Shown: positions 2,757-16,876 of the stretch, piece by piece
Layout of the letters: every line of letters starts with the position of its first letter
Numbering within the stretch: the first letter of the stretch is position 1
Assembly (NCBI GenBank): GCA_938041335.1
Contig: CALIAF010000026.1
Location: forward strand, 1-64,000
DNA: 64,000 bases
Source of the DNA: an uncultured Ulvibacter sp.
GTDB lineage: Bacteria > Bacteroidota > Bacteroidia > Flavobacteriales > Flavobacteriaceae
Reading direction: 5' to 3'
The notes under the pieces: model-generated
What the model was told of the DNA's origin: nothing
Seen by the model: only the letters and a program-made list of their open reading frames with translations
Databases searched by the model: none
Made by a program: the position numbers and the translations under genes

Positions 2757-2772
2757 TGGTTATCCAAATAAA
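2757..2772 (-). promoter_or_regulatory. Possible autoregulatory operator and -7 element of the GntR gene
   Basis: TGGTTATCCA (2757-2766) differs at two positions from the decamer TGGTTTACCA found at the susC and gntK-gnd promoters. It overlaps TTTATTTG (minus strand, 2765-2772), one base off TAnnTTTG, by the same two bases as at the other two promoters. The shared geometry supports a real but weaker site; the sequence match alone would not. Confidence 0.4.
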
Positions 2773-2951: not shown

Positions 2952-4298
2952 TTAGTATCCGGGATTTTGTGTAATCACCCCGTCGCTCGCAAGAATTTCC
3001 GAGATTGGAACAGGAAATACAAAGTAGTTAGGATTAACCGCTTCTCCCATTGCAGCATCAACAGTGCCTGTTCTAACTAAATCAAACCATCTATGTCCTT
3101 CAAAGGCCAATTCTAATCTTCTTTCGTCAGCGATTGCCTGTCTAACTAATTCTTGTGTATTAATAGTGCCAGGATCTAAAGCATTTAAACCTGCTCTCTC
3201 TCTAATATCATCTAATAAAGAAAGTACCGTTGTTGCATCCGTACCATTTTCATTCAAAGTTTCTGCATATAGTAAAATCATATCTGCTAATCTAATTTCT
3301 ATCCAGTCATGATCAGGACCCTCAGCTTGAGGAAATTTTGGTGATGCTAAAGCATCTACGTCTATAGTTACAGCTCTTCTTAAATCTCCAGCATCTACAT
3401 CAACTATTTCTCCAGCAACCGCATCAAAAGCAGCAATTAAAGATGCGTCTAATGGATTTAAAGACTTAGTTTCTAAACCACCAGACCATTCCCAAAATTC
3501 AGAAAATCCATATTCATCTGATACCGAGCTTGAAATTCTTGTTGCATATATAATTTCTGAATTTCCATTCTCATTTGCTTCACCAAAAATAGCAGCAAAA
3601 TCATCTACCAAACTAAATCCTGCACCAGCTGCTCCACTAACTGCAGCGGCTAATTGCGTCTCAGCATTTACAAAATCTCCTTGGGTAACATATACTTTAC
3701 CAAGTAAACATTGAGCTATATAAGAAGATGCTCTCCCGTCTGAACTTGTTGTACCTAAAGCCGCTATAGCATCTTGTAAATCTGGAATAATCACATTTGT
3801 ATAGATGTCAGAAACTGGTTGCCTTGAATAATCAAAATTTGGAATTTCTTCAATAGCTATTGGGCTCAGTACTACAGTAACCCCACCAAAGGCTTGAACT
3901 AGTTTGTAATAAGACATCCCTCTTAAAAACTTAGCTTCACCTACTTGAGTAGCGTCCTCCGAATTTGCAATTACAATATTTGCACTTGTTATAGACTTGT
4001 ATAAAGCAGTATAGAATGGGCCAAAAAATTGATCTTCCATATCCGTTAAATCTGTATTGAATCTATCAAATGCTGGGTAAGGCTCTTCTTCCATTACTGC
4101 ATTGTCTGATCTAAAGTCACCCATTACTGCCATCGGCGTAACGGAACCATGTTGGTAGAAGTATGCCGCGTTTAAAATCCCCGTATAATCTGATAATTCA
4201 TCTGCATTAGCAATATTATCAGGAGACTGGTCTAAATCTGTGGTACATGCTGTTATTAACAGCAACGATACCAATGATACATATATATATTTTTTCAT
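2952..4298 (-). CDS. susD: SusD/RagB-family glycan-binding lipoprotein
   Basis: The 448-residue protein begins with a lipoprotein signal peptide (lipobox LITAC, Cys at about 18) and has SusD features: TPR-like helices, RLADMILLYAETLNENG, and near the C-terminus ERRLELAFEGHRWFDLVRTG. SusD proteins sit on the outer face of the outer membrane, capture oligosaccharides and act as the lid of the SusC transporter. The start codon lies 10 bp after the susC stop, so the two are co-transcribed, and a strong terminator follows. Neighbouring PL6 and PL7 lyases make alginate oligosaccharides the likely ligand. It is slightly shorter than most SusD proteins, with no sign of truncation. Confidence 0.95.
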   Translation of the reverse strand: MKKYIYVSLVSLLLITACTTDLDQSPDNIANADELSDYTGILNAAYFYQHGSVTPMAVMGDFRSDNAVMEEEPYPAFDRFNTDLTDMEDQFFGPFYTALYKSITSANIVIANSEDATQVGEAKFLRGMSYYKLVQAFGGVTVVLSPIAIEEIPNFDYSRQPVSDIYTNVIIPDLQDAIAALGTTSSDGRASSYIAQCLLGKVYVTQGDFVNAETQLAAAVSGAAGAGFSLVDDFAAIFGEANENGNSEIIYATRISSSVSDEYGFSEFWEWSGGLETKSLNPLDASLIAAFDAVAGEIVDVDAGDLRRAVTIDVDALASPKFPQAEGPDHDWIEIRLADMILLYAETLNENGTDATTVLSLLDDIRERAGLNALDPGTINTQELVRQAIADERRLELAFEGHRWFDLVRTGTVDAAMGEAVNPNYFVFPVPISEILASDGVITQNPGY

Positions 4299-4308
4299 CT
4301 TTTTTTAT

Positions 4309-7300
4309 TTAAAAATTAACGTTTAATCCCATAGTAAAACTCTTTGCAATTGGACTAGCACCTACTTGTACTCCATAAGTTGTAGGTCCTGCATAACCGC
4401 TATTAGTTGTTTCTACACCCTCTGGATTATATGATGTATAATCATCAGACCATAAGTATAACAAGTTAGTTCCCGCTAGGTAGAATCTCACAGATGTGAA
4501 GCCTACTTTGCGTGTTAGGTTTGAATCTAAGGTATAACCTAATGTAAGGTTTCTTAATGCTACGTATGATGCATCTTGTATCATTGCGTCTGTTTGGTTT
4601 CTGTTACCAATATAATGCTCTCCATTATGATCGGCAATACCGTCATCATTAGCATCAAAACTATCTACTAATCTTCCGCTCCATTGAGATTCATAGTAAA
4701 GCGGGTCAATATTATAAACTTCTGCGCCTTGCGATCCTTGTAGCTGGAAAGAAAAATCAAAATCTTTATAACCCATATTACTATTTAAACCCCAATAAAA
4801 GTCTGGAGTAGCTTGTCCAATTTTCACAAGATCTCCTCCATCTTCTACGGTTTTTGTGCGGTCAATCACACCATCACCATTTTGATCTACAACATAACTT
4901 TCACCAGTGGCGTTGTTAGGATGTCTTGTTCCATCTTCTAAATAGATCATTTCAACATCTCCTATCGTTTCTAAGCCCCACATCTCACCAAGCTCTCCAC
5001 CTACGTAATTTCTAAATACTGGTCCTCTACCACTCTGTCCGTAAATTTGTTGCGGTAATTCATTTAATCCATTTAAGTCTGTGATCTCTGTATCCACTGT
5101 GGACAAGTTAGCGCCTAAGCTCCAAGTAAAGTTATCTGAATTTACCAAGTTTGCATTAAGTTCAAATTCTAAACCTGAGCTTCTTACATCACCAGCATTT
5201 AAAAGATAAGAAGTAGTACCTATTACTTCAGATGTGCTAAAATTAAGTAACATATCTTCTGTATCAGATGTGTAATAGTCTGTACTTAAAGTAACACGAT
5301 TATTTAAAAACCCGAAATCTACACCATAATTAGTCTCTGTGTTAGTTTGCCAAGTTAAATCTGGGTTTGCTAAATTATTTGGGATAAGAAATCCAGTACC
5401 TAATACTGTTGCTAAGGGGTTAGAAAGACTTAAAGCGTCATATGATCCTAAAAAAGAAGTTGTTCCTAAAGAACCAAAACTATATCTAAGCTTTAATTTA
5501 CTCAACGCATCACTATCTGCTAAAAAAGATTCATTGTGTACATTCCAACCTACAGAAAATGCTGGGAAAGTTGCAAATCTATTATTAGCCCCAAAACGAG
5601 AATCACCATCTCTTCTTATTGATGCTGATACTAAATAACGATTATCAAATGCGTAATTCACTCTTCCGAAAACACTTTTTCTCACTACCGTTTCATCTCT
5701 CTCAGATACTGAAATATCTGCAGGGTCTAAAAGGTTATAATTAATAATTTCACTAAACGGAACATTTGTACCAACTATAGAAGTACCTACTAAGTTAGTC
5801 GTTTGATATTCAACACCCGCAACAGCAGATACATCATGATCTCCAAACTCTTTAGTATAATTTAAAGTAGATTCACTTAGTACAGAAGTTACTTGTAAAT
5901 CTGTTTGATCTAAGTCCGTTTGATTTGTACGTGCTCTAGAATCTGCTTCAAGTCCTTGATAATAATAGCTTTTAGTATCTCTATAGTCACCACCTAAAAC
6001 AGTTTTTACATTTAAACCATCTAAGATTTCATATTGTAAATAAGAACTTGCATTTCCGAAGAACGTTTTTTCCCATTGATCTGCATTATCAAGCTTAGTA
6101 GCCGGTCCTGCATCTCCAGATCCTCCAATACCATTATTGTCTCTTCCGTAATGCCAGTCTTGAGCAGTATCACCTGGTTGTAAGGTATAAATACTATCAT
6201 TAAACCCAGCAGCAGTACCGCCAGAGCCACCTCTATATCCATCATCAAAAGGATCTAATCCTAAGCCTTGTGCTTCCTGATCCAAAGCCTGTACAAAAGC
6301 AATAGATTCTGCTGTATGGTAAATAGAATGAACTCCATAGGCTCTTAACAAATCTCTCATATCATGAGCTACTATATCTCTTTTAGATGTAAACCCATTA
6401 AAACTTAATCCTGTCTTAAACTTATCGCCTAATTTAGCGTCTACATTTAAACGTGCATTTAATCGCTCATAACCTTGAGTGATAACAATTCCGTCTGTGT
6501 CTTGGTAACCAATTGAAGTAAAGTAGTTCACATCTTCAGAACCTCCACTCACACTAAAATCATGACTAGATGTATGTCCATTTCTAAAAAGCCAGTCTTC
6601 TGGGCTTATTGCACCAGGTGAATTTTCATAAGCATTTAACCTATATTCAACAAAAGCCGGGTCAACCTGAGAAAGATCCCAATTACCTGCTGCAATTTGC
6701 TCTCTAGAAAATGCCGCCCATTCTGGACCTGATTTAAGTATATTGTCTTTCAAATACCTACTTGATAAACTAGAGTATGTATTGTAGCTAAATTGAGCTT
6801 TACCTTGTTTTCCTTTTTTAGTCGTCACCAATATAACTCCATTTGCACCTCTAGAACCATAAATGGCCGCAGAAGCAGCATCCTTTAATACCTCTAAACT
6901 TTGAATGTCATTAGGGTTAATACTTGCTAAACCTCCAGAAATTGGAAATCCATCCACAACAATTAGTGGGCTTGAGTCTCCTGAAAGAGACGAAGCTGCT
7001 CTTACTTGTATCTTAAGATCCGCTCCAGGCTCACCACTTTGATTTTGAATTAATACCCCAGCTAGTTTACCAGCTAGTGCCTCATCAACACGATTAGCTT
7101 GTATAGCTGCAATATCATCTCCACCTACTTTAGCAACTGCTCCAGTTATGTGGCTCTTTTTTCGAGTACCGTAACCAACAACTACAACCTCATCTAAAGA
7201 GTTAGCATCTTCTGCTAAGCTAATATTAAGCGTAGTTTGGTTAGTAATTGTAACGGATTGTGATACAAATCCTAAATAAGAAAATTGGACAACATCACCA

Positions 7301-7503
7301 CTTGTTACGTTAAGTTGAAAATTACCATCAAAATCTGTGTAAGCACCAGTATTTGTGCCTTCAACAAGAACATTTGCTCCAGGAATTCCCATTTGATCTA
7401 CTGCAGAAACTACAGTTCCTGTAAGCGTGTAGCTTTCTTGCGCTAAAATAATAGTACTACTAAAAAGCAGTATAATTAAGGTTAGCTTCTTTTTTAAATT
7501 CAT
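4309..7503 (-). CDS. susC: SusC/RagA-family TonB-dependent transporter
   Basis: The 1064-residue outer-membrane protein has a signal peptide (1-21), a carboxypeptidase-like regulatory domain (about 25-95), a TonB-box region around DEVVVVGYGTRKK, a plug domain with the SusC hallmark VLKDAASAAIYGSRGANG (about 205-222), and a long beta-barrel ending in an aromatic residue (LNVNF). It imports oligosaccharides with energy from TonB/ExbBD and pairs with the SusD encoded just downstream. Alginate oligomers are the probable substrate. The promoter upstream carries three operator-like decamers, so expression is probably induced by alginate breakdown products. Size and domain order are normal. Confidence 0.96.
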   Translation of the reverse strand: MNLKKKLTLIILLFSSTIILAQESYTLTGTVVSAVDQMGIPGANVLVEGTNTGAYTDFDGNFQLNVTSGDVVQFSYLGFVSQSVTITNQTTLNISLAEDANSLDEVVVVGYGTRKKSHITGAVAKVGGDDIAAIQANRVDEALAGKLAGVLIQNQSGEPGADLKIQVRAASSLSGDSSPLIVVDGFPISGGLASINPNDIQSLEVLKDAASAAIYGSRGANGVILVTTKKGKQGKAQFSYNTYSSLSSRYLKDNILKSGPEWAAFSREQIAAGNWDLSQVDPAFVEYRLNAYENSPGAISPEDWLFRNGHTSSHDFSVSGGSEDVNYFTSIGYQDTDGIVITQGYERLNARLNVDAKLGDKFKTGLSFNGFTSKRDIVAHDMRDLLRAYGVHSIYHTAESIAFVQALDQEAQGLGLDPFDDGYRGGSGGTAAGFNDSIYTLQPGDTAQDWHYGRDNNGIGGSGDAGPATKLDNADQWEKTFFGNASSYLQYEILDGLNVKTVLGGDYRDTKSYYYQGLEADSRARTNQTDLDQTDLQVTSVLSESTLNYTKEFGDHDVSAVAGVEYQTTNLVGTSIVGTNVPFSEIINYNLLDPADISVSERDETVVRKSVFGRVNYAFDNRYLVSASIRRDGDSRFGANNRFATFPAFSVGWNVHNESFLADSDALSKLKLRYSFGSLGTTSFLGSYDALSLSNPLATVLGTGFLIPNNLANPDLTWQTNTETNYGVDFGFLNNRVTLSTDYYTSDTEDMLLNFSTSEVIGTTSYLLNAGDVRSSGLEFELNANLVNSDNFTWSLGANLSTVDTEITDLNGLNELPQQIYGQSGRGPVFRNYVGGELGEMWGLETIGDVEMIYLEDGTRHPNNATGESYVVDQNGDGVIDRTKTVEDGGDLVKIGQATPDFYWGLNSNMGYKDFDFSFQLQGSQGAEVYNIDPLYYESQWSGRLVDSFDANDDGIADHNGEHYIGNRNQTDAMIQDASYVALRNLTLGYTLDSNLTRKVGFTSVRFYLAGTNLLYLWSDDYTSYNPEGVETTNSGYAGPTTYGVQVGASPIAKSFTMGLNVNF

Positions 7504-7599: not shown

Positions 7600-7662
7600 T
7601 GGTTTACCAAACTGGTAAACCACTTTGGTAAACCAAATATATTAAAATTATGTTAATGACAA
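7600..7662 (-). promoter_or_regulatory. susC promoter with three phased operator decamers
   Basis: The minus strand carries TTG (7662-7660), 18 bp, then TATATTTG (7641-7634), a full match to the Bacteroidota -33/-7 promoter. Three decamers lie over and downstream of the -7 element: TGGTTTACCA at 7600-7609, TGGTAAACCA at 7613-7622 and TGGTAAACCA at 7626-7635. They are phased at exactly 13 bp. The first two form an inverted repeat with a 3-bp spacer; the last overlaps the -7 element by two bases. A repressor here would cover the transcription start. The decamer resembles the ExuR/UxuR operator core TGGTATACCA, which fits the FadR-type GntR protein encoded at 2028-2735. Confidence 0.85.
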
Positions 7663-7727
7663 GGCTTTTAGGTAGTTATTTTAGGTTTATTCCATAAAAT
7701 CTTCATCAATAGTGTGATTTTATATGA

Positions 7728-8096
7728 TTATTTACCAAAATATGAAACTTTATCACCACTTAAAAAATCTTCTCTAACAGGACTAAATGTGTCAATTAAC
7801 ATTCCTTCTTCTAAGCAAACTGCACTATGTAATAAATTTGGTTCAATATATACACCATCACCTGCTTCAATAATTTTCTTCTCTCCATCAATTTCGAATT
7901 CAAATTTTCCGGAGACACAAAAAGTTGCTTGTGTGTGAAAATGCTGATGTGGAGATCCAATTGCGCCTTTATCAAACTTTACTTTAACCATCATTATTTG
8001 GTTATCATAACCTAAAAATTTTCTTGAAACTCCACCTCCAAGTACTTCCCATTGTTTTTCTTTTGTAATGATGTATTTTTCGCTAAATCTTTTCAT
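7728..8096 (-). CDS. kdgF: KdgF-like cupin, unsaturated uronate linearisation
   Basis: The 122-residue protein is a single small cupin. Metal ligands are visible in PHQHFHTQATF (residues about 45-56) and LLHSAV (about 91-96), and the KdgF signature DTFSPVRED lies near the C-terminus. KdgF converts the 4,5-unsaturated monouronate released by pectin or alginate lyases into the open-chain keto acid (DKI/DEH), a step once thought to be only spontaneous. It lies between the SDR reductase and susC in the alginate locus, exactly the expected pathway neighbour. It is a cytoplasmic protein of normal length. Confidence 0.88.
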   Translation of the reverse strand: MKRFSEKYIITKEKQWEVLGGGVSRKFLGYDNQIMMVKVKFDKGAIGSPHQHFHTQATFCVSGKFEFEIDGEKKIIEAGDGVYIEPNLLHSAVCLEEGMLIDTFSPVREDFLSGDKVSYFGK

Positions 8097-8115
8097 ATTC
8101 TATAGTTTATTGTTG

Positions 8116-8145
8116 TTTTTCTTTTTAGAGTTTTTCTTTTTAGAG
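8116..8145. repeat. Tandem 15-bp duplication upstream of kdgF
   Basis: TTTTTCTTTTTAGAG is present twice in direct tandem (8116-8130 and 8131-8145) in the 130-bp gap between the SDR gene and kdgF. It is probably a simple replication-slippage duplication; I see no regulatory role. Confidence 0.75.
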
Positions 8146-8226
8146 CTACTGGTATTTAAAAAATTTCAGCTTTGCTAAAAAAAATTTAATCTTGTCCATA
8201 ATTTAAACCCTACTCTATTTCAGTTT

Positions 8227-8991
8227 TTACATGTTATAAACCCCGCCATTAATGTCTAGTGAAGCACCAGTAATAAAACCATCATATTCTGAGGCCAGAT
8301 ATAAAACCGCGCGCGCTACGTCTGCCGCATTACCCGCTCTTTTAATAGGAATTCCTGCAGTTGTTGCAGCTGCAGATTCTTTTGTTGTGTGCGTATTGTG
8401 AAAAGATGTGCCCAGGATAAGTCCGGGAGCAACGGCGTTGACTCTAGTACCTTGAGGCCCCAACTCTGTTGATAAGGCTCTTGTAAAAGTTAAAATAGCG
8501 CCTTTACTTGTGGCATAAGCAAGTGAACCTGGGTGCCCTCCTTTACGTCCAGCAAGTGACGCCAAATTAACAATACTACTATTGTCATTTTTTGCCAAAT
8601 ACGGCGCCGCAGCTCGCGTCACAAACATCATTGAAGTCAGATTGATATCCATTACTTTGTGCCAAAATCCGGTCTCCATTTCGTTTAGCATTTTGCGCGC
8701 AACTAGTGAACCAGCATTATTGATAAGTATGTCTAGACCTCCAAGTTCTTCTACCGTTTTTTTCACCAAGGCATTCGCATCGGCTTCTTTAGTTAAGTCA
8801 CCAGATATTGCAATGGCTTTCTGTCCTTTACTCTTTGCGTATGCAATCAATTCGTTAGCCGTATCTGCGCTTGAAAAATAGTGTACCGCAACATGGGCTC
8901 CACTATCTATAAAATGTCTAGTAATAGATTCTCCTATTCCCTGCGCTCCAGCAGTTATTAACACATTTTTATTTGCTAGTTTTTTCATCAT
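8227..8991 (-). CDS. SDR-family reductase, probable DEH reductase
   Basis: The 254-residue protein is a complete classical SDR: cofactor motif TAGAQGIG near the N-terminus, NNAGS in the middle, catalytic Ser in NLASLAG and YATSK with the Tyr and Lys, and the usual C-terminal ASLDINGGV. The reading frame stays open far upstream inside the PL7 gene, but SDR homology begins at MKKLANKNVLITAG, so the start is ATG 8991 (or 8988), one base after the PL7 stop. It probably reduces DEH from alginate to 2-keto-3-deoxygluconate with NAD(P)H. It is translationally close-coupled to the lyase upstream and followed by kdgF. The substrate is inferred from context. Confidence 0.88.
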   Translation of the reverse strand: MMKKLANKNVLITAGAQGIGESITRHFIDSGAHVAVHYFSSADTANELIAYAKSKGQKAIAISGDLTKEADANALVKKTVEELGGLDILINNAGSLVARKMLNEMETGFWHKVMDINLTSMMFVTRAAAPYLAKNDNSSIVNLASLAGRKGGHPGSLAYATSKGAILTFTRALSTELGPQGTRVNAVAPGLILGTSFHNTHTTKESAAATTAGIPIKRAGNAADVARAVLYLASEYDGFITGASLDINGGVYNM

Positions 8992-8992
8992 A

Positions 8993-10093
8993 CTATTTTT
9001 GATAATCGTCATTTTTTGAAAAATACTCTTCATTAGAAACCGCCTCATCGCTAACAGAAATACTTGCTGTTTTAAACCATACCTCAGCATAATTACCATC
9101 TGCATATTGTTTTTTAATATCACCTCCATGTGTTTCTGCTCCAGCACACCAGACCATATTGCTTTCTGGAGACTTCCCGTTTGTTTGATTATAAGATCCC
9201 ATCTTAAAAAAGCAACCTTCGCCAGCATACCCATCTTCGCGCTCTAAACCATCTTGACCAATGGGCACAAATAATTTTTCTACTTGCGCTGGTCTATCTG
9301 CAGCTGTCGCATATTCAGATTCAACTAAGTTTTTTGTAAATGATTTTGATTCGTGGCCCTCGCTGGTAAATGAAACCGTCATAATGCCTTTTTTTACGTG
9401 TACCTCATAGCTAAATTCTTCTCCTAACTTAATTCCATTTTCAGGCTCTGCTGGTGCATTCTCTTTATCTGCCCCAACGACTGAAAAGTCATACCCCCAA
9501 ACAGGTAACGAATAATCCCATCTACCTGCATTATCATCTCCGGCAGTATTAATTTCATAATTCCAGAAAACAGAACCCTTTTCATGTCCTGGAAATTTCT
9601 TGTAAAATATTTTTAACGGCTCATTCTCGTGCCCATCTGCACTATGAATTTGTCCAACTACAACGGAGTATGAAGCTGCAACGCGGGCATCACCTGTAGC
9701 AGATACATTCATCACTTTGAGCGTCGCATTCATTTTGTCATTAGCTTTATTAGGAAAGAATTTTTTCTTTTGAGCTAGTTCTGTCCTTGTGTTATTAGAA
9801 GAACCGTGTGTACTACCGTTATTTGGCGTTTTATAAACTACCCAATCTGTTTTCTCTTCATTTGTTGTGTAAAAGAAATCATCATTCTCCATATTATTAG
9901 CGACTCCAGCATTAGAGCCGTCACCTAAAATCAAATTCCAATGATGGTAAAAGGGAATAACATCGCTCGGGTATGTTATTTTTTGAGTTTCGTTTTCGGT
10001 ATTTTCTTTAACGGTGTTGTTGCAGCTACTGAACGCCAGCAAGGCGCCAATAAATACCAATGTTGTTGCTATTGTGATAGTTTTTTTAGACAT
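8993..10093 (-). CDS. PL7 alginate lyase lipoprotein (second copy)
   Basis: The 366-residue protein has a lipoprotein signal peptide (FSSC, Cys about 24) and one alginate_lyase2 (PL7) jelly-roll domain from about residue 40 to the end. The three PL7 signature strands are present: NTRTELAQ, VVGQIHS and CFFKMGSYNQTNG, carrying the catalytic Arg, Gln, His and Tyr. PL7 enzymes cut alginate by beta-elimination, mostly endolytically; QIH in the second motif is usually linked to guluronate-containing blocks. It is probably anchored at the cell surface. It is a paralogue of the gene directly upstream (10120-11169), with near-identical stretches through the central strands. It has a short polar tail (SVSDEAVSNEEYFSKNDDYQK, cut here to its role) that the other copy lacks. 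Confidence 0.92.
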   Translation of the reverse strand: MSKKTITIATTLVFIGALLAFSSCNNTVKENTENETQKITYPSDVIPFYHHWNLILGDGSNAGVANNMENDDFFYTTNEEKTDWVVYKTPNNGSTHGSSNNTRTELAQKKKFFPNKANDKMNATLKVMNVSATGDARVAASYSVVVGQIHSADGHENEPLKIFYKKFPGHEKGSVFWNYEINTAGDDNAGRWDYSLPVWGYDFSVVGADKENAPAEPENGIKLGEEFSYEVHVKKGIMTVSFTSEGHESKSFTKNLVESEYATAADRPAQVEKLFVPIGQDGLEREDGYAGEGCFFKMGSYNQTNGKSPESNMVWCAGAETHGGDIKKQYADGNYAEVWFKTASISVSDEAVSNEEYFSKNDDYQK

Positions 10094-10119
10094 TTTTCTA
10101 TTGTTTTAATTAACTGTTT

Positions 10120-11169
10120 TTACTGATTTTTTGGTGCAGTTCCAGCTCCTACTGTAGCTTCTTTAAACCACACTTCTGTATAACTTCCGTTTTCATATTG
10201 TTTTGCAATATCTCCTCCATAGGTTTCAGCACCTGCACACCAGACCATATTAGTTGAAGGGTCTTTACCGTTAGTTTGATTATAGGCGCCTTGCTTAAAG
10301 TAATTTAATTCTCCTTTATATGCATCTGGGTTTTCTGTTCCATCCTGCCCTATTGGCACAAATAAATTTTTGGTTTGCTCGGGTATGTCGGCACGCGAAG
10401 TGTAATCTGATGCAATTAAATTTTTAGTAAATGTTTTTGTTTTATGACCTTCACTCATAAATGTGAGGTACATTATTCCTTTATAGACGTTTACTTCATA
10501 GCTAAATTCTTCTCCTAAGGCAATACCGTTTGTAGGCGCTGCAGGAAATTCATCAGGACTTGTCCCTATACCCGCCATGTCATAGCCCCAAACCGCCTCA
10601 GAGAAATCCCATCTGCCTGCATTATCATCACCGGCCGTATTAATTTCGTAATTCCAGAAAACAGAGCCTTTATCTTGACCGGGGAATTTTTTATAAAATA
10701 TTTTTAAGGGTTCATTTTCATGTCCTTCCCCACTATGAATCTGTCCCACTACCACTGAGTATGAAGCCGCAACTCTAGCATCACCTGAAGTAGATACGTG
10801 TTGTACTTTTAAAGTAGCTGTTAATTTACCACCAGTTTCTGGCACCCATTCTTCTTTCTGATGCAATTCTGTTCTTGTGTTGCTTGAGTTTTTTGAAGTA
10901 GTTCCAGAATTTGGCGTCTTATAAACAACCCAGTCTGTTTTGCCGTCATTTTTAGTATAGAAAAAATCTTCTTGAGAATAACCAACTAAATTTTCGATAT
11001 TAGTTCCGTCTCCTAATAATATTTTCCATTGGTCCATAAATGGCAATACATCACTTGGAGCTTTAACTACTTTTTCGGTTTGCGTATTCCCTTCGGAAAT
11101 ACCCTCTTTCTTGTTTTTACATGCTAAAAGGGCTAAAAGAGCGAGGATTGTAAAGGCTGTTTTTTTCAT
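10120..11169 (-). CDS. PL7 alginate lyase lipoprotein (first copy)
   Basis: The 349-residue protein starts with a short lipoprotein signal (LLAC, Cys 17) and carries a PL7 alginate lyase domain. Motifs NTRTELHQ, VVGQIHSGEGHENEP and NYFKQGAYNQTNG hold the catalytic residues. It is a close tandem paralogue of the following gene, 26 bp away; the middle of the proteins (RVAASYSVVVGQIHS and FYKKFPG to NTAGDDNAGRWD) is nearly identical, so the pair arose by duplication. The N-terminal linkers and surface loops differ more, which suggests diverging subsite preference rather than simple dosage. It lies 10 bp after the PL6 lyase gene and is surely in the same transcript. Confidence 0.93.
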   Translation of the reverse strand: MKKTAFTILALLALLACKNKKEGISEGNTQTEKVVKAPSDVLPFMDQWKILLGDGTNIENLVGYSQEDFFYTKNDGKTDWVVYKTPNSGTTSKNSSNTRTELHQKEEWVPETGGKLTATLKVQHVSTSGDARVAASYSVVVGQIHSGEGHENEPLKIFYKKFPGQDKGSVFWNYEINTAGDDNAGRWDFSEAVWGYDMAGIGTSPDEFPAAPTNGIALGEEFSYEVNVYKGIMYLTFMSEGHKTKTFTKNLIASDYTSRADIPEQTKNLFVPIGQDGTENPDAYKGELNYFKQGAYNQTNGKDPSTNMVWCAGAETYGGDIAKQYENGSYTEVWFKEATVGAGTAPKNQ

Positions 11170-11179
11170 TTTAATTGTT

Positions 11180-13507
11180 TTAATACATTAACTTCAGTTT
11201 CAAATTTTCTTCGGTTGCAATCTTTCCAGAATTAGAAATTTGATTGTCTGATGCTACATTGTTTTTTGCTCCCCATAGCATAGAAACAAATACAACCGAA
11301 TTGTTATTAAATGTACTTTTAGTAATATTTACATTTACAATCCCTCTATGGTTTAACAAGGTTTTGTTTTTCTCTTTTGCACCACAATTAGTAAATGTAG
11401 AATTTGTAACTAAAAGGTTCCCACCTATAGTAGATTCATCATAACCGCCCCTGTAATAATCTATCACATTCTGTTTTACGTTTATAAATGTGCAATTTTC
11501 AATGGTTAAATACTCTGTGTTATAATCGCCTCTATCATTAGTTTCTTCAGATAACTCGATCCCGTTTTCACAATCTGAGATGGAGGTGTTTTTAAAAGTA
11601 ATCTCTTCTGAGAACGATTGTTTGTAAACTTTTAGCGCGTACTTAAAATCACTTATTTCTGCATTAGAAACAAATAGCCCAAAATGATTAAACATATTCT
11701 CTTTTAAACTCGCAAAAGCAAATTGCGTGTTTGTTCCTTTTAGTTTTATGTTATTAACCGTTAGTTTTCCATAAGGATGTAGTTGAAACAATGGAGAATT
11801 TTCTGCTCCAGTATATTTTAAAACGGTATTTGTTTTATCTTCTGATGTTATATGAAGCTCCTTATTAATTTTTAAGGGCTTGTCTATCAAATAATTACCT
11901 TTTTTTAGCACTATTATCGCTCCGTTCCCAACCTCCTTAATCTTGGTAATTAACTCTTCAGAACTAGATACAGTGTCTGTTGTGGGTGGCAAATCCAATT
12001 TTTCGTTAGAAAACCAATCTGCTCCATATTTAGATTTGTCAAGCAATTCTAAATTTATATTTTCTGCATGTGCAATGGCACCTATCTTATTAGACTTATC
12101 TCTAGCATTTCCGAATAAATCATGAGTAATAGAGTCAAAATCGAAGCCCTTATACACTTCTACATCATCAAAACCGGTGGTAGGCACAGAAAGATTTGTA
12201 CCAATATCTGTAAGCGATAATTCTTTAGTGATTAAACCGTGATCATTTGCAATGGTTACCCCATTATTATAAATAACATTACTTTTAAAAGTGATACCAT
12301 CTGCTTTATCGTGCTCTATAATTGGGTTTGCGTCACCTTCAGAATTATAAATAATATTATTTACAACTTCTGTTCTTAAGGGTCTTGCAGAGCGTATTTC
12401 AGACTTAGGTAAAACGTCTGCTTGTGCAATATTTGTACCTACCCCAAGCTGCCAAGGCGAATCTGAATCTACAAAAGTATTGTACGCAACCACCACATCT
12501 GTAACTTGATTGTATCTATTTAATGGCGATTTTGGGATACCATTCATAATTGCTATTGGGCTTCTAAAATTCTTTCCTTTAATTTTATAAAAAAGGTTAT
12601 TCGTAACCCAATGACCTGTGTTAATAATTCTGATACCACCATATTGCTCATTAACACCATCGCCAATAAAGTAGTTTCCATCTATAGTAACATAGTTTCC
12701 GTGCCGGGTAACTACAGAACCTTCGCTTTTATAGAAAACGTTGTTTTTAATGATATTGGAGTTTGTTTTGCTAGAGATAATCTCCACTTCGCCATTACAT
12801 GCTTCAAATAAGTTATTTGCAATGGTTGTATTGCTTGGCGACATAGAAGTAAAGCTACTCCCAAGCTGTATTGTTTCTCCTCTAGCGCCTCCCTTTCTGG
12901 GTCTTGGTCCAAAATGGTTATTTACAATTTGGTGGTAGTTTCTAATACTTTGGTTTCCTTTTAAATCGACTCTTACTGTTGGTCCTCCATTGGTTTTTCC
13001 TGCAAGATAACAATGGTCCATTGTATTGCGCTTTCCATAGAATTGTACCCAAAGATTATCTTGATCACGCTCCATATTATTAAAATCTAAAATCACACAA
13101 TTAGATACACTGCTATGATTTGCAACCTCACTTTCGCTTGTTCTAAAGGCGATTACGTTTTCTGACGGCGCATGTCCGTGTCTAAAAAATAAGCCCTCAA
13201 CTTTTAGATAATTTCCGCTCAAGGCTAGATTAGAAATCCCTTCAATAAATACTTTCCCCGGAGTTTCTGCCTTTAAGGTGATTGGGCTATTTTCTGTACC
13301 TTCTGCAGTAAATTTAATTTCAACATCTTTCCAAACTCCATTTGTCATCACAATATCATCTCCTGCTTTACTTTTGGCAATAGCTGTGTTGAGCTCATCA
13401 ATAGTAGATACACCTATAGAATTTCCTGTTCCCTCACTACAAGACACGAACAATAGCAGCATACATAAGACGGTGATTACTTTTTTTATGGTTGTTATAT
13501 ATTTCAT
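11180..13507 (-). CDS. PL6 alginate lyase lipoprotein (chondroitinase B-like fold)
   Basis: The 775-residue protein has a lipoprotein signal peptide (LLFVSC) and two right-handed parallel beta-helix regions (about 40-480 and 500-770), the layout of two-domain PL6 enzymes. The N-terminal helix has PL6 features: PRPRKGGARGETIQLGSS, NGEVEIISSKTNSN (catalytic Lys) and VVTRHGN (catalytic Arg). PL6 lyases act on mannuronate-guluronate or polyguluronate blocks, and some release mainly di- and trimers. The frame opens earlier at a TTG (13531), but ATG 13507 directly precedes the signal peptide and is preferred. It complements the two PL7 lyases downstream. Confidence 0.92.
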   Translation of the reverse strand: MKYITTIKKVITVLCMLLLFVSCSEGTGNSIGVSTIDELNTAIAKSKAGDDIVMTNGVWKDVEIKFTAEGTENSPITLKAETPGKVFIEGISNLALSGNYLKVEGLFFRHGHAPSENVIAFRTSESEVANHSSVSNCVILDFNNMERDQDNLWVQFYGKRNTMDHCYLAGKTNGGPTVRVDLKGNQSIRNYHQIVNNHFGPRPRKGGARGETIQLGSSFTSMSPSNTTIANNLFEACNGEVEIISSKTNSNIIKNNVFYKSEGSVVTRHGNYVTIDGNYFIGDGVNEQYGGIRIINTGHWVTNNLFYKIKGKNFRSPIAIMNGIPKSPLNRYNQVTDVVVAYNTFVDSDSPWQLGVGTNIAQADVLPKSEIRSARPLRTEVVNNIIYNSEGDANPIIEHDKADGITFKSNVIYNNGVTIANDHGLITKELSLTDIGTNLSVPTTGFDDVEVYKGFDFDSITHDLFGNARDKSNKIGAIAHAENINLELLDKSKYGADWFSNEKLDLPPTTDTVSSSEELITKIKEVGNGAIIVLKKGNYLIDKPLKINKELHITSEDKTNTVLKYTGAENSPLFQLHPYGKLTVNNIKLKGTNTQFAFASLKENMFNHFGLFVSNAEISDFKYALKVYKQSFSEEITFKNTSISDCENGIELSEETNDRGDYNTEYLTIENCTFINVKQNVIDYYRGGYDESTIGGNLLVTNSTFTNCGAKEKNKTLLNHRGIVNVNITKSTFNNNSVVFVSMLWGAKNNVASDNQISNSGKIATEENLKLKLMY

Positions 13508-13566
13508 TCTTAAATTTAAAAACTGTTTCAAATTAATATTATTTCCGAAGAAAAAAAATGCTTCTA

Positions 13567-14841
13567 TTAAAAGTACTCCGTTAAGGCTATGATACCATTA
13601 TAAGAAATCACACAGGCAAAAAACAGCGCAGCAAACAATCCAATATTTATGGAAATCCCGGTTTTATAGCCTTTCATTACTTTTTTGTTATTGACTAATA
13701 ATATGATCCCGAGGATCACAAGAGGCAATACAAAGACATTAAAAACCTGCGACAAAATCTGCATCTGTATTGGGTTTGACCCAAAAATTGGAACGATTAA
13801 AGCAACCAAGCATGCTATAAAAGTGACAACTCTAAACTGCTTCGAGTTTGTGTCTAATTTTCCAGACTGATAATCTGCGAGTAATAAAGGAGCAATCAAT
13901 AAACAAGGAAAAATGGATGATAACCCTGCGCTTAATGTCCCGAAAAAGAAAATGGAAACCGCAAACCTACCAGCAACTGGTTCTAGCGTGTTTGCCATAT
14001 CTAATACTTTAGTCACAGGATTTCCTTGATGAAATAATGCACCACAGGCTACCGCCATTATCGCAGCACTTATAATAAAAACCAATGTTGCCGCGATTAT
14101 AGAATCATTTTTTTGTTGTTTTAGGTTCGCAATTGTCCATCCTTTACCTCTTACAAAAAGCGGACGTGATAAAAAGGTAGCTGCTGCCATAGTAGTTCCT
14201 ACAAAGGCTGCGACCATCATCTTACCGCCAGGGACATCTGGTATTGATGGGATTAACCCGCCGATAACATCTGTCGAGAGTGGGTATACAAAGAATAATG
14301 AGATGATAAAAGAAAGTCCCATTATGGCAACAAAAATGACTAATATCTTCTCAAAAAACGTGTATTTACCAACCAGCATTAAAGAGTAGAAAATGGCAAT
14401 AATTAAAATGGCTATTCCGAGTACAACCTCATATTTATTATCTGCAAGTTGTGGGTAACTTTGAGCGATTAATTCGTAAATTATATTTGAAGAAATGCCT
14501 AATATTCCCATTAAAGAGTTCCATTGTCCAAAGACAATCCCGACAATAATAAGAATTGCTAAAATCTTACCATATTTAAGGTGTTTTTTAAAGCCATAAA
14601 GCGCCGTTTCTCCAGTAATTAAAGCATAATTACCATAAGTAAACATTAAGACCCCAGAGAAAATACAGCTTAATAATAACACCCACAACAACTGCATCCC
14701 GTAGGTACTACCAGCAACAATCATTGAGGTTACACTTCCTGTTCCTATGGTATATCCTATGGCAAAAATACCCGGACCAAACCCTAGTATGAGTGCTAAA
14801 AATTTTTTGACCAATGATTTCTTAGGCTGTGTTGCTTCCAT
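13567..14841 (-). CDS. NRAMP-like membrane transporter lacking canonical metal-binding motifs
   Basis: The 424-residue protein has about 11 hydrophobic segments and aligns in outline with the NRAMP (SLC11) family, starting with LALILGFGPGIFAIGYTIGTGS. In true metal transporters the first helix carries Asp-Pro-Gly-Asn and the sixth Met-Pro-His. Here the first is GYTIGTGS and the region expected for the sixth reads GTTMAAATFLSRPLF, so the residues that coordinate Mn or Fe are absent. It lies between the gluconokinase/6PGDH fusion and the alginate lyases, 24 bp after the former, under the alginate-type operator. I therefore doubt a manganese role and suggest a sugar-acid or other organic substrate; this is inference. 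Motif positions were assigned by eye. Confidence 0.8.
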   Translation of the reverse strand: MEATQPKKSLVKKFLALILGFGPGIFAIGYTIGTGSVTSMIVAGSTYGMQLLWVLLLSCIFSGVLMFTYGNYALITGETALYGFKKHLKYGKILAILIIVGIVFGQWNSLMGILGISSNIIYELIAQSYPQLADNKYEVVLGIAILIIAIFYSLMLVGKYTFFEKILVIFVAIMGLSFIISLFFVYPLSTDVIGGLIPSIPDVPGGKMMVAAFVGTTMAAATFLSRPLFVRGKGWTIANLKQQKNDSIIAATLVFIISAAIMAVACGALFHQGNPVTKVLDMANTLEPVAGRFAVSIFFFGTLSAGLSSIFPCLLIAPLLLADYQSGKLDTNSKQFRVVTFIACLVALIVPIFGSNPIQMQILSQVFNVFVLPLVILGIILLVNNKKVMKGYKTGISINIGLFAALFFACVISYNGIIALTEYF

Positions 14842-14864
14842 AATATGGCTTTATTTTTAAATTG

Positions 14865-16796
14865 TTAGTTCCAGTTTGTGTGATAATTTTTTCCAGAATC
14901 ATCATCTATTCTTTTGTAGGTATGTGCTCCAAAATAATCTCTTTGTGCTTGAATAATATTTGCTGATGAGTTTGCTCTGGTAATTCCGTTGAAAAATTGA
15001 ACAGATTCACTTAAGCAAGGCACAGCTATTTCATTCGCTATACTTTGAGCAACTACTATTTTTATTGCTGGTTTATATTGATTAATCAACGCTCTAAAGT
15101 GTTGATTAATCAATATATTATTTGTGTTTGACAACACAGGCACCAGCTCTTCCATTAAAGTAGATTTGATAATGCACCCGTTTGTCCAGATTCTAGCAAT
15201 CTCGCTAAGGTTTAAATCCCAAGAAAACGAAATTGACGCTGCGTCCAAAAGCTTAAAACCTTGGTAATGATTGATGATTCTCGCAAATTGATAAGCATCA
15301 CGTATTTCATCAAGATCAATGTCCGTTATTATTTTTTTGGTCTTGCTGAAATTTTCACTATGAACTATTCGCTCTTCTTTATTAAACGATGTGTAGCGTG
15401 CAAATAGGGCAGCAGCGATTAGCGTGCTTGGCACACCTAATTGTGCAGATGCAATTGTTGTCCAATTTCCAGTTCCTTTATTACCCGCCTTATCCAAGAT
15501 CTTTTTGAGCAACCAATCTTCGCCTTCTTTCTTTCTAAAAATATTAATAGTGATTTCTAATAAATAGCTATTAGTCGTATCTTTCCATGACTCCAAAGTG
15601 TTGGCTATTTCATTTTGATTCTGGCCTTGTGCTGCTAAAATGCTGCCTATTTCTGCAAGCAATTGCATTTCTACATACTCAATGCCATTATGTACCATTT
15701 TAACAAAATGTCCACTACCTTCTGGACCAATATAAGTACAACAAGGCAAGTTGTTTTGATCTTTTGCTGCTACTGCCCCTAAAAATGATTCAATGTTTTT
15801 ATACCCTTCTTTTGAACCACTTGGCATTATTGAAGGGCCCGTTAAAGCACCGTTTTCTCCACCAGAAACGCCCGCCCCTATAAAATGAATGTTCTTAGTT
15901 TTTAAATATTCGACCCGCTCATTTGTTTTTACATAGTTAGAGTTCCCTCCATCGATTAGAATATCGTTTTTAGACAAATGCGGTAGTAAATTTTCAATAA
16001 CAAGATCTACTGTATTACCTGCATTGACCATAAGCATAATTTTTCTTGGTCTTTGTAATGAATCTACAAAAGCTGCAATATCATCAAAAGGAACTGCATG
16101 GGATAACTCAGGATGTCCGGCTTTAAAGTCTTGGGCAATATTTTCTTCTACGCCTTCTACATGTCTATTAAACATTGAAATTTTAAATCCATTTCTGGAT
16201 AAATTTCTACATAAACTCTTTCCCATTACCCCTAGACCAAAGAGCCCAAATTGAGATTTAATACCCATTTCACTCTTTATCGTTTGCACTATTTCTTCTG
16301 GTGTTAAATTCACGTTTATTTGTAATGCGTTTATAGGATCTTCTAGAATATCAAATTGTGATTGCAATAATTCTGAAGACATAAAATGATCTGATCTGCT
16401 ATTTATTCTTTCAAAAATTTGGTCAAATGAGCCGAATAAATGCACCCAATTTACATTACGTTCCATACCGGATTGCAAAATCTCGCGGTACTTCTGTTTT
16501 AAAGCCGAACACGCTATTATAAAACTATTATGTGCTAATTTTTTACTCGCAAATTTGTTTATGGCAATTAACCAACCTTCTCTATCTTCATCATTTAAAG
16601 GCTGTCCACTAGACATTTTAGCAATATTCTCTTCTGAATGAAAATCGTCTCCGTCGAAATATGGGATAGAAAGTTCATCTGACAGCAACTGTCCAACTGT
16701 AGATTTTCCTACTCCCGAAACGCCAATTATAAAGATTACTTGGTTCAATGGTTTCTTTTTTTGGTAATGAATAGCCTCTTTAAAATTGAGATTCAT
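14865..16796 (-). CDS. gntK-gnd: Bifunctional gluconokinase / 6-phosphogluconate dehydrogenase fusion
   Basis: The 643-residue protein joins two complete enzymes. Residues about 18-175 form a GntK-type gluconokinase: P-loop GVSGVGKST, then DGDDFHSEENIAKMSSGQPL and CSALKQKYR. Residues about 178-643 form a long-type decarboxylating 6-phosphogluconate dehydrogenase: GLGVMG cofactor loop, GAGVSGGENGALTGPSIMPS, GSGHFVKMVHNGIEY with the catalytic Lys, GNKGTGNWT, and the terminal RDYFGAHTYKRID and HTNW. All key residues are present in both halves, so gluconate could go straight to ribulose 5-phosphate with CO2 and NAD(P)H release. It is the first gene of the alginate operon and its promoter has the same operator decamers as susC. 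NADPH for the reductases is one possible reason for its presence. Confidence 0.93.
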   Translation of the reverse strand: MNLNFKEAIHYQKKKPLNQVIFIIGVSGVGKSTVGQLLSDELSIPYFDGDDFHSEENIAKMSSGQPLNDEDREGWLIAINKFASKKLAHNSFIIACSALKQKYREILQSGMERNVNWVHLFGSFDQIFERINSRSDHFMSSELLQSQFDILEDPINALQINVNLTPEEIVQTIKSEMGIKSQFGLFGLGVMGKSLCRNLSRNGFKISMFNRHVEGVEENIAQDFKAGHPELSHAVPFDDIAAFVDSLQRPRKIMLMVNAGNTVDLVIENLLPHLSKNDILIDGGNSNYVKTNERVEYLKTKNIHFIGAGVSGGENGALTGPSIMPSGSKEGYKNIESFLGAVAAKDQNNLPCCTYIGPEGSGHFVKMVHNGIEYVEMQLLAEIGSILAAQGQNQNEIANTLESWKDTTNSYLLEITINIFRKKEGEDWLLKKILDKAGNKGTGNWTTIASAQLGVPSTLIAAALFARYTSFNKEERIVHSENFSKTKKIITDIDLDEIRDAYQFARIINHYQGFKLLDAASISFSWDLNLSEIARIWTNGCIIKSTLMEELVPVLSNTNNILINQHFRALINQYKPAIKIVVAQSIANEIAVPCLSESVQFFNGITRANSSANIIQAQRDYFGAHTYKRIDDDSGKNYHTNWN

Positions 16797-16825
16797 CTTT
16801 AAACCATTTTGATGTTTTTATAAAT

Positions 16826-16876
16826 TGGTTTACCAGATTGGTTTACCAAATATATGTATATTAACCGAAGGCACAA
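16826..16876 (-). promoter_or_regulatory. gntK-gnd promoter with two phased operator decamers
   Basis: On the minus strand TTG (16876-16874), 19 bp, then TATATTTG (16854-16847) form a Bacteroidota promoter 50 bp before the ATG. TGGTTTACCA occurs at 16826-16835 and again at 16839-16848, 13 bp apart. The upstream copy overlaps the -7 element by two bases, exactly as at susC. The two promoters are 9 kb apart and share no other sequence, so the match in decamer, phase and position points to one regulator controlling both transcripts. Confidence 0.87.

Follow-up and report, generated by a model that had tools for sequence, protein, structure and literature searches.

The same ten-base word, repeated at a constant pitch, stands at two promoters in a stretch of DNA from an uncultured Ulvibacter sp. 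This raises the question of whether the repeats are operators and, if so, which protein would bind them and which genes would be controlled. The stretch analysed, referred to here as the window, is 64,000 nucleotides long (contig CALIAF010000026.1, positions 1 to 64,000).

The region in which the two promoters lie is an alginate utilisation locus. The array of three copies is followed by susC-susD-gntR-MFS-SDR, that is, by the genes for a SusC-type TonB-dependent transporter (4309-7503), a SusD-type lipoprotein (2952-4298), a regulator (2028-2735) and an MFS transporter (474-1817), and by the start of an SDR gene that is cut by the contig end (1-422). The array of two copies is followed by gntKgnd-Nramp-PL6-PL7-PL7-SDR-kdgF, which comprises the genes for a GntK-Gnd fusion protein of 643 amino acids (14865-16796), an Nramp-type metal transporter (13567-14841), a PL6-type lyase with a Chondroitinas_B domain (11180-13531), two PL7 alginate lyases (10120-11169 and 8993-10093), an SDR that is a probable DEH reductase (8227-8985), and a cupin protein, taken to be KdgF by its context (7728-8096). 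All of these genes are on the minus strand. The assignments are based on Pfam (Cupin_2 for the cupin protein), with two exceptions. The fusion protein exceeds the cut-offs of TIGR01313 (156.7 bits against 113.75) and TIGR00873, and the truncated SDR is 73% identical over 140 amino acids to the gene that follows the MFS gene in a related locus (L031), where that gene is an SDR by Pfam. For the SDR at 8227-8985, the Pfam domain begins at residue 89 of a longer frame, and the start given is set by the domain limits. The PL7 protein encoded at 10120-11169 is near PDB 4be3, an alginate lyase (E = 2.5e-153). Judging from direction and close packing, each of the two gene sets probably forms one operon. 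Relatives of the Nramp gene are also seen within 20 kb around the regulator gene in several of the named loci described below and in three stretches that are probably from Zobellia.

The regulator, of 235 amino acids, carries GntR and FCD domains (PF00392 and PF07729, with 66.6 and 87.2 bits against cut-offs of 27 and 24.3, respectively). Its gene sits between susD and the MFS gene, with PL6, PL7, SDR and cupin genes alongside. An earlier note on this DNA had placed a FadR-type GntR gene between the two promoters; its actual position is outside that interval.

TGGTTTACCA or its complement occurs at 7600, 7613, 7626, 16826 and 16839, and there is no further exact copy in the window. The mean number expected is 0.21, and none of 100 shuffles reaches five. 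Because the genes assigned between 474 and 16796 lie on the minus strand, both arrays are read leftwards. At the susC promoter, the first predicted operator copy (7626-7635, minus strand) is followed by the second (7613-7622, minus) and the third (7600-7609, plus); at the promoter of the gntKgnd-lyase operon, the first copy (16839-16848) is followed by the second (16826-16835), both on the minus strand. In either array, successive copies are 13 bases apart. Each array opens with TATATTTGG, in which the first two bases of the decamer are the last two of a -7 element, TATATTTG, so called after the -7 promoter consensus of the phylum Bacteroidota. The elements are at 7634-7641 for susC and 16847-16854 for gntKgnd, both on the minus strand, where the complete motifs read TATATTTGGTTTACCA (7641-7626) and TATATTTGGTAAACCA (16854-16839). 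A TTG is found 18 and 19 bases further upstream, respectively (7662-7660 and 16876-16874), and the -7 element ends 130 bases before the start of susC and 50 bases before that of gntK-gnd. The five exact decamers, their 13-base phasing and the identical two-base overlap in both promoter-proximal copies had been described in the earlier note and are all confirmed. The same geometry had also been ascribed to a degenerate single predicted operator before the regulator gene (2757-2766, minus strand; one mismatch to TGGTWWACCA), which is not borne out: this site, 31 bases before the gntR start, is preceded by TTTATTTG and not by TANNTTTG.

The expectation by chance in the whole assembly (3.25 Mb) was obtained from a first-order model of the window composition. 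About 14 occurrences of TGGTWWACCA and about 6e-5 phased pairs are expected under this model. The assembly contains three overlapping phased pairs, and the reversed-pattern control none. All three pairs are at the two window promoters, so that the genome scan for 13-base phasing proposed in the earlier note returns the alginate locus only. The single decamer TGGTTTACCA has 18 exact copies in the assembly, and the reversed control has 14. Outside the locus there are 13 decamers, 12 within open frames and one in a hairpin-like stretch between convergent frames (C24:25844-25853, in L013); the latter is probably a terminator that matches by coincidence. A lone decamer is thus unremarkable; what counts is that the copies form an array in phase and overlap the promoter. 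A search of the assembly for a wider regulon with TANNTTTGGWWWWCCA gave six places, two being the locus promoters and the other four lying inside open frames.

It is highly probable that the decamers are operators to which the GntR/FCD regulator encoded in the same locus binds, and that this regulator is a repressor of the AusR type that would close both alginate operons. Without alginate, one regulator dimer would occupy each near-palindrome TGGTWWACCA, and two or three dimers side by side, every 13 bases, would span the DNA from the end of the -7 element through the expected start point into the bases transcribed first. The polymerase would be blocked at promoters covered in this way, and both operons would be shut. 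A product of alginate breakdown would release the dimers, and the weaker single site before the regulator gene would serve as feedback. The sequences themselves show the sites with their register, their overlap with the promoters, their place in the assembly, their conservation and their occurrence together with the regulator; binding, repression, cooperativity and the effector are what we infer for this regulator. The sign of control is not given by sequence comparison, and the same regulator might act at the same sites as an activator, or as both activator and repressor; this is very unlikely, considering that the arrays start at the -7 end and run downstream, where a bound protein would block the polymerase, and that the AusR precedent is a repressor as described in the parts of the sources cited below.

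For comparison, 80 named flavobacterial loci, the best 80 of 323 found via the regulator, were analysed (1.58 Mb; L069 and L073 are from one contig, and some loci are short). TGGTWWACCA occurs 246 times, in 78 of these best 80 loci. All 107 distances of up to 60 bases between sites in this set are 13 (85 cases), 26 (20) or 39 bases (2), while for six control palindromes similar in composition the counts range from 1 to 16 and no pair is formed. The exact phased pair is present in 56 of the 80 loci and absent from 24. With a relaxed core, two to four phased copies are found upstream of 67 of 75 susC frames, one copy upstream of one, and none upstream of seven. With target genes assigned by simple open-frame calls, the susC arrays overlap TANNTTTG directly in 62 of 73 cases and via a degenerate copy 13 bases upstream in ten, with one case lacking the overlap; among 12 decamer groups inside genes, the overlap is found in none. 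In the regulator class of the same analysis (42 rows), the overlap at the -7 element is direct in four, shifted in 20, such shifted cases being prone to chance, and missing in 18, and in the class of other genes (40 rows), some of which face the back of an array, it is direct in 19, shifted in five and missing in 16. Among ten further proteins encoded behind arrays, a domain of alginate or polysaccharide lyases is present in five, and the other five have only a Por secretion tail or an LTD domain. Many relatives have, by the same open-frame calls, a single full site before the regulator gene, mostly 21-40 bases from the start, and the degenerate site of the window is in the same place; in 37 of the 80 loci the 420 bases that precede the regulator gene contain no site.

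These loci also bear on a reading in which the repeats act as RNA, the inverted copies folding up in the susC leader into a hairpin by which expression is attenuated. In the susC array of the window, copies 2 and 3 are indeed inverted, and the predicted leader opens with a 12-pair hairpin there (leader fold -28.5 kcal/mol). The gntK-gnd array, however, is not inverted, and an RNA device would need no overlap with the -7 element. Moreover, adjacent pairs in the 80 loci are inverted (AA/TT) in 12 of 102 cases, which is rarer than by chance (18.8 in shuffles, range 13-24), and have the same orientation in 47 (35.9 in shuffles, range 30-42). On these orientation counts the RNA reading was rejected, although the susC leader of the window folds such a hairpin, and we give it hardly any credence.

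The association of operator and regulator proposed here was further surveyed in 397 genomes of the family, with the regulator counted at E of at most 1e-40. The exact pair is found in 85 genomes and the regulator in 103, and all 85 carry the regulator; the pair is found in none of the 294 regulator-negative genomes (Fisher test, 3e-69, a value inflated by shared ancestry). In 16 of the 18 regulator-positive genomes lacking the exact pair, a relaxed phased pair is present when up to one mismatch is allowed. The remaining two (G251 and G305) have no relaxed pair, and their regulators are 48% and 53% identical. In 18 hand-picked regulator-negative genomes, the relaxed pair was not found. Within the genus, the pair is present in four of 11 genomes, and the seven genomes without it are 1.7-2.1 Mb in size and 59-90% complete. 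Two genomes (G245 and G396; L156 and L157) have tandem copies of the regulator gene, and in each of them arrays precede susC as well as the second copy. The co-occurrence could stem from inheritance of the whole locus, with the GntR/FCD gene a mere neighbour and the arrays bound by a different regulator encoded elsewhere, but this is scarcely plausible, in that the predicted site has the boxes of the FadR subfamily as given in part of PMC4494728, the genes assigned between 474 and 16796 yielded no other regulator, and AusR, as partly described in PMC7874173, is a precedent for a GntR-family regulator on such operators.

The order of genes differs in related genomes. Two sister genomes (L114 and L115) have a double array at the head of PL6-PL7-GntKGnd-Nramp-PL7-SDR, another before a lyase gene and KdgF (the domains of this lyase gene were checked in L031 only), and a triple array at the head of susC. 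The GntK-Gnd fusion is absent from the 20 kb taken from a third sister genome (L116). Since the fusion lies inside the operon in the former two and is absent from the stretch of the latter, the operator goes with the lyase operon and not with gntK-gnd in particular. The earlier note had proposed one regulator for transporter, lyases and gntK-gnd. That one FadR-type GntR regulator would act on all of these together is strongly supported by the comparison (85 of 85 against 0 of 294 genomes, and arrays before the alginate genes of named relatives), but the gntK-gnd promoter is to be regarded as the head of the lyase operon.

Three further genomes carrying the same phased decamers (G011, G396 and G245) form one genus, probably Zobellia, because the PL7 protein of G011 is 96% identical to 4be3, whose source organism we take to be Zobellia. 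In G011 and G396, a stand-alone GntK-type kinase gene is directly behind the double array; its product is 29-31% identical to the GntK domain of the window, and scores 77.7 and 55 bits in the two genomes, below the TIGR01313 cut-off of 113.75. No such kinase gene is present in the 20 kb taken from G245. Two features are less familiar: the strict 13-base pitch, and the presence behind the operator, in the window and in two probable Zobellia genomes, of GntK-type kinase genes. A pitch of 13 bases is about 1.24 helical turns, which would turn each dimer roughly 85 degrees from the previous one. It may be speculated, although we consider it rather doubtful, that the pitch stems from FCD-type dimers stacking in a spiral, driven by contacts and with no need of a NanR-like N-terminal extension, the copy number setting how firmly each promoter is closed, and that the GntK-type kinase is the sign of an aldonate branch in alginate catabolism that has gone unrecognised.

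For the route through KDG, searches in the assembly for the PF01081 aldolase and with a KdgK protein, the latter a search lacking a positive control, gave no match. The aldolase is found in three of the 11 genomes of the genus, about 4 kb behind the regulator gene, and seven others without it are 59-90% complete. In L031, the regulator gene is followed by genes for an MFS transporter, an SDR, a PfkB kinase, and then the aldolase. Loss of the KDG route was considered and set aside, for in the sister species kdgK and kdgA follow the SDR gene, which is where the contig of the window begins. Most simply, the missing kdgK and kdgA reflect an assembly gap, because the aldolase is behind the regulator gene in the sister genomes and the contig starts inside the SDR gene. 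In G011, a relative of PPi-type phosphofructokinases is encoded directly after the KDG kinase (L154, 2934-4160).

The arrays would provide an operator code for the alginate regulons of marine Flavobacteriaceae. The members of such a regulon may be listed from the sequence, because among the 397 genomes the exact phased pair occurs only with the regulator. With its strict pitch, the system lends itself to testing how repressor dimers stack, and the kinase gene that follows the operator points towards a step in the use of alginate that is unexplained.

The earlier note had compared the decamer with TGGTATACCA, given there as the operator core of UxuR and ExuR of E. coli. Both are FadR-subfamily repressors of uronate genes, and, according to the portion of PMC4494728 available here, the likeness holds for UxuR, whose sites have a two-base GT/AC centre as in the window, but not for ExuR, whose sites have three bases there. 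The equivalog models of UxuR and ExuR give the protein encoded at 2028-2735 only 63.6 of 442 and 61.5 of 396 bits, far below their cut-offs. At the level of the subfamily, the same portion describes sites with TKGT and ACMA boxes and two or three bases between GT and AC (PMC4494728). The regulator has the GntR winged helix and the FCD domain of this subfamily, and the predicted site, TGGT-WW-ACCA, fits the boxes. Weaker half-sites, 7-12 bases from the site centres, are described there for 23 GntR-family groups, with the suggestion that they recruit further subunits (PMC4494728); such recruitment would fit a 13-base array.

NanR of E. coli, as described in part of PMC8012715, has FadR-type dimers bound in tandem on one promoter operator (three dimers on three repeats) and released by a metabolite, as is predicted here. 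In contrast, the NanR repeats are direct GGTATA repeats less than half a helical turn apart, while those of the window are near-palindromic decamers every 13 bases, and the N-terminal extension to which the cooperativity of NanR is attributed (PMC8012715) is shorter in the window regulator. The aligned part begins at residue 14 in the window regulator and at residue 32 in NanR, with 13 and 31 residues before it, respectively. The NanR model NF003011 gives the window regulator 114.7 of 260 bits, below the cut-off.

The closest likeness is to AusR of Zobellia galactanivorans, the study of which (Dudek et al. 2020) is known here through parts of PMC8286568, PMC8073546 and PMC7874173. A search of literature text for the decamer in six spellings gave no relevant title among the matches listed. 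In these accounts, AusR is a GntR-family repressor of alginate genes (PMC8286568, PMC8073546); the operators it binds are single, double or triple, and intermediates bring about its release (PMC7874173). In both systems the regulator gene lies inside an alginate locus, here with PL6, PL7, SDR and cupin genes; the single, double and triple operators have their counterparts in the degenerate single site at the regulator gene, the double array at the lyase operon and the triple array at susC; and the susC, lyase and own promoters are the targets, predicted ones in the window, a likeness drawn from secondary description. The gene order differs from that of the Z. galactanivorans locus, the lyase operon being headed here by the GntK-Gnd fusion. 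By all the comparative tests made, the arrays behave as an operator system, ordinary in kind, and the system very probably belongs to the AusR alginate regulon as a further member.
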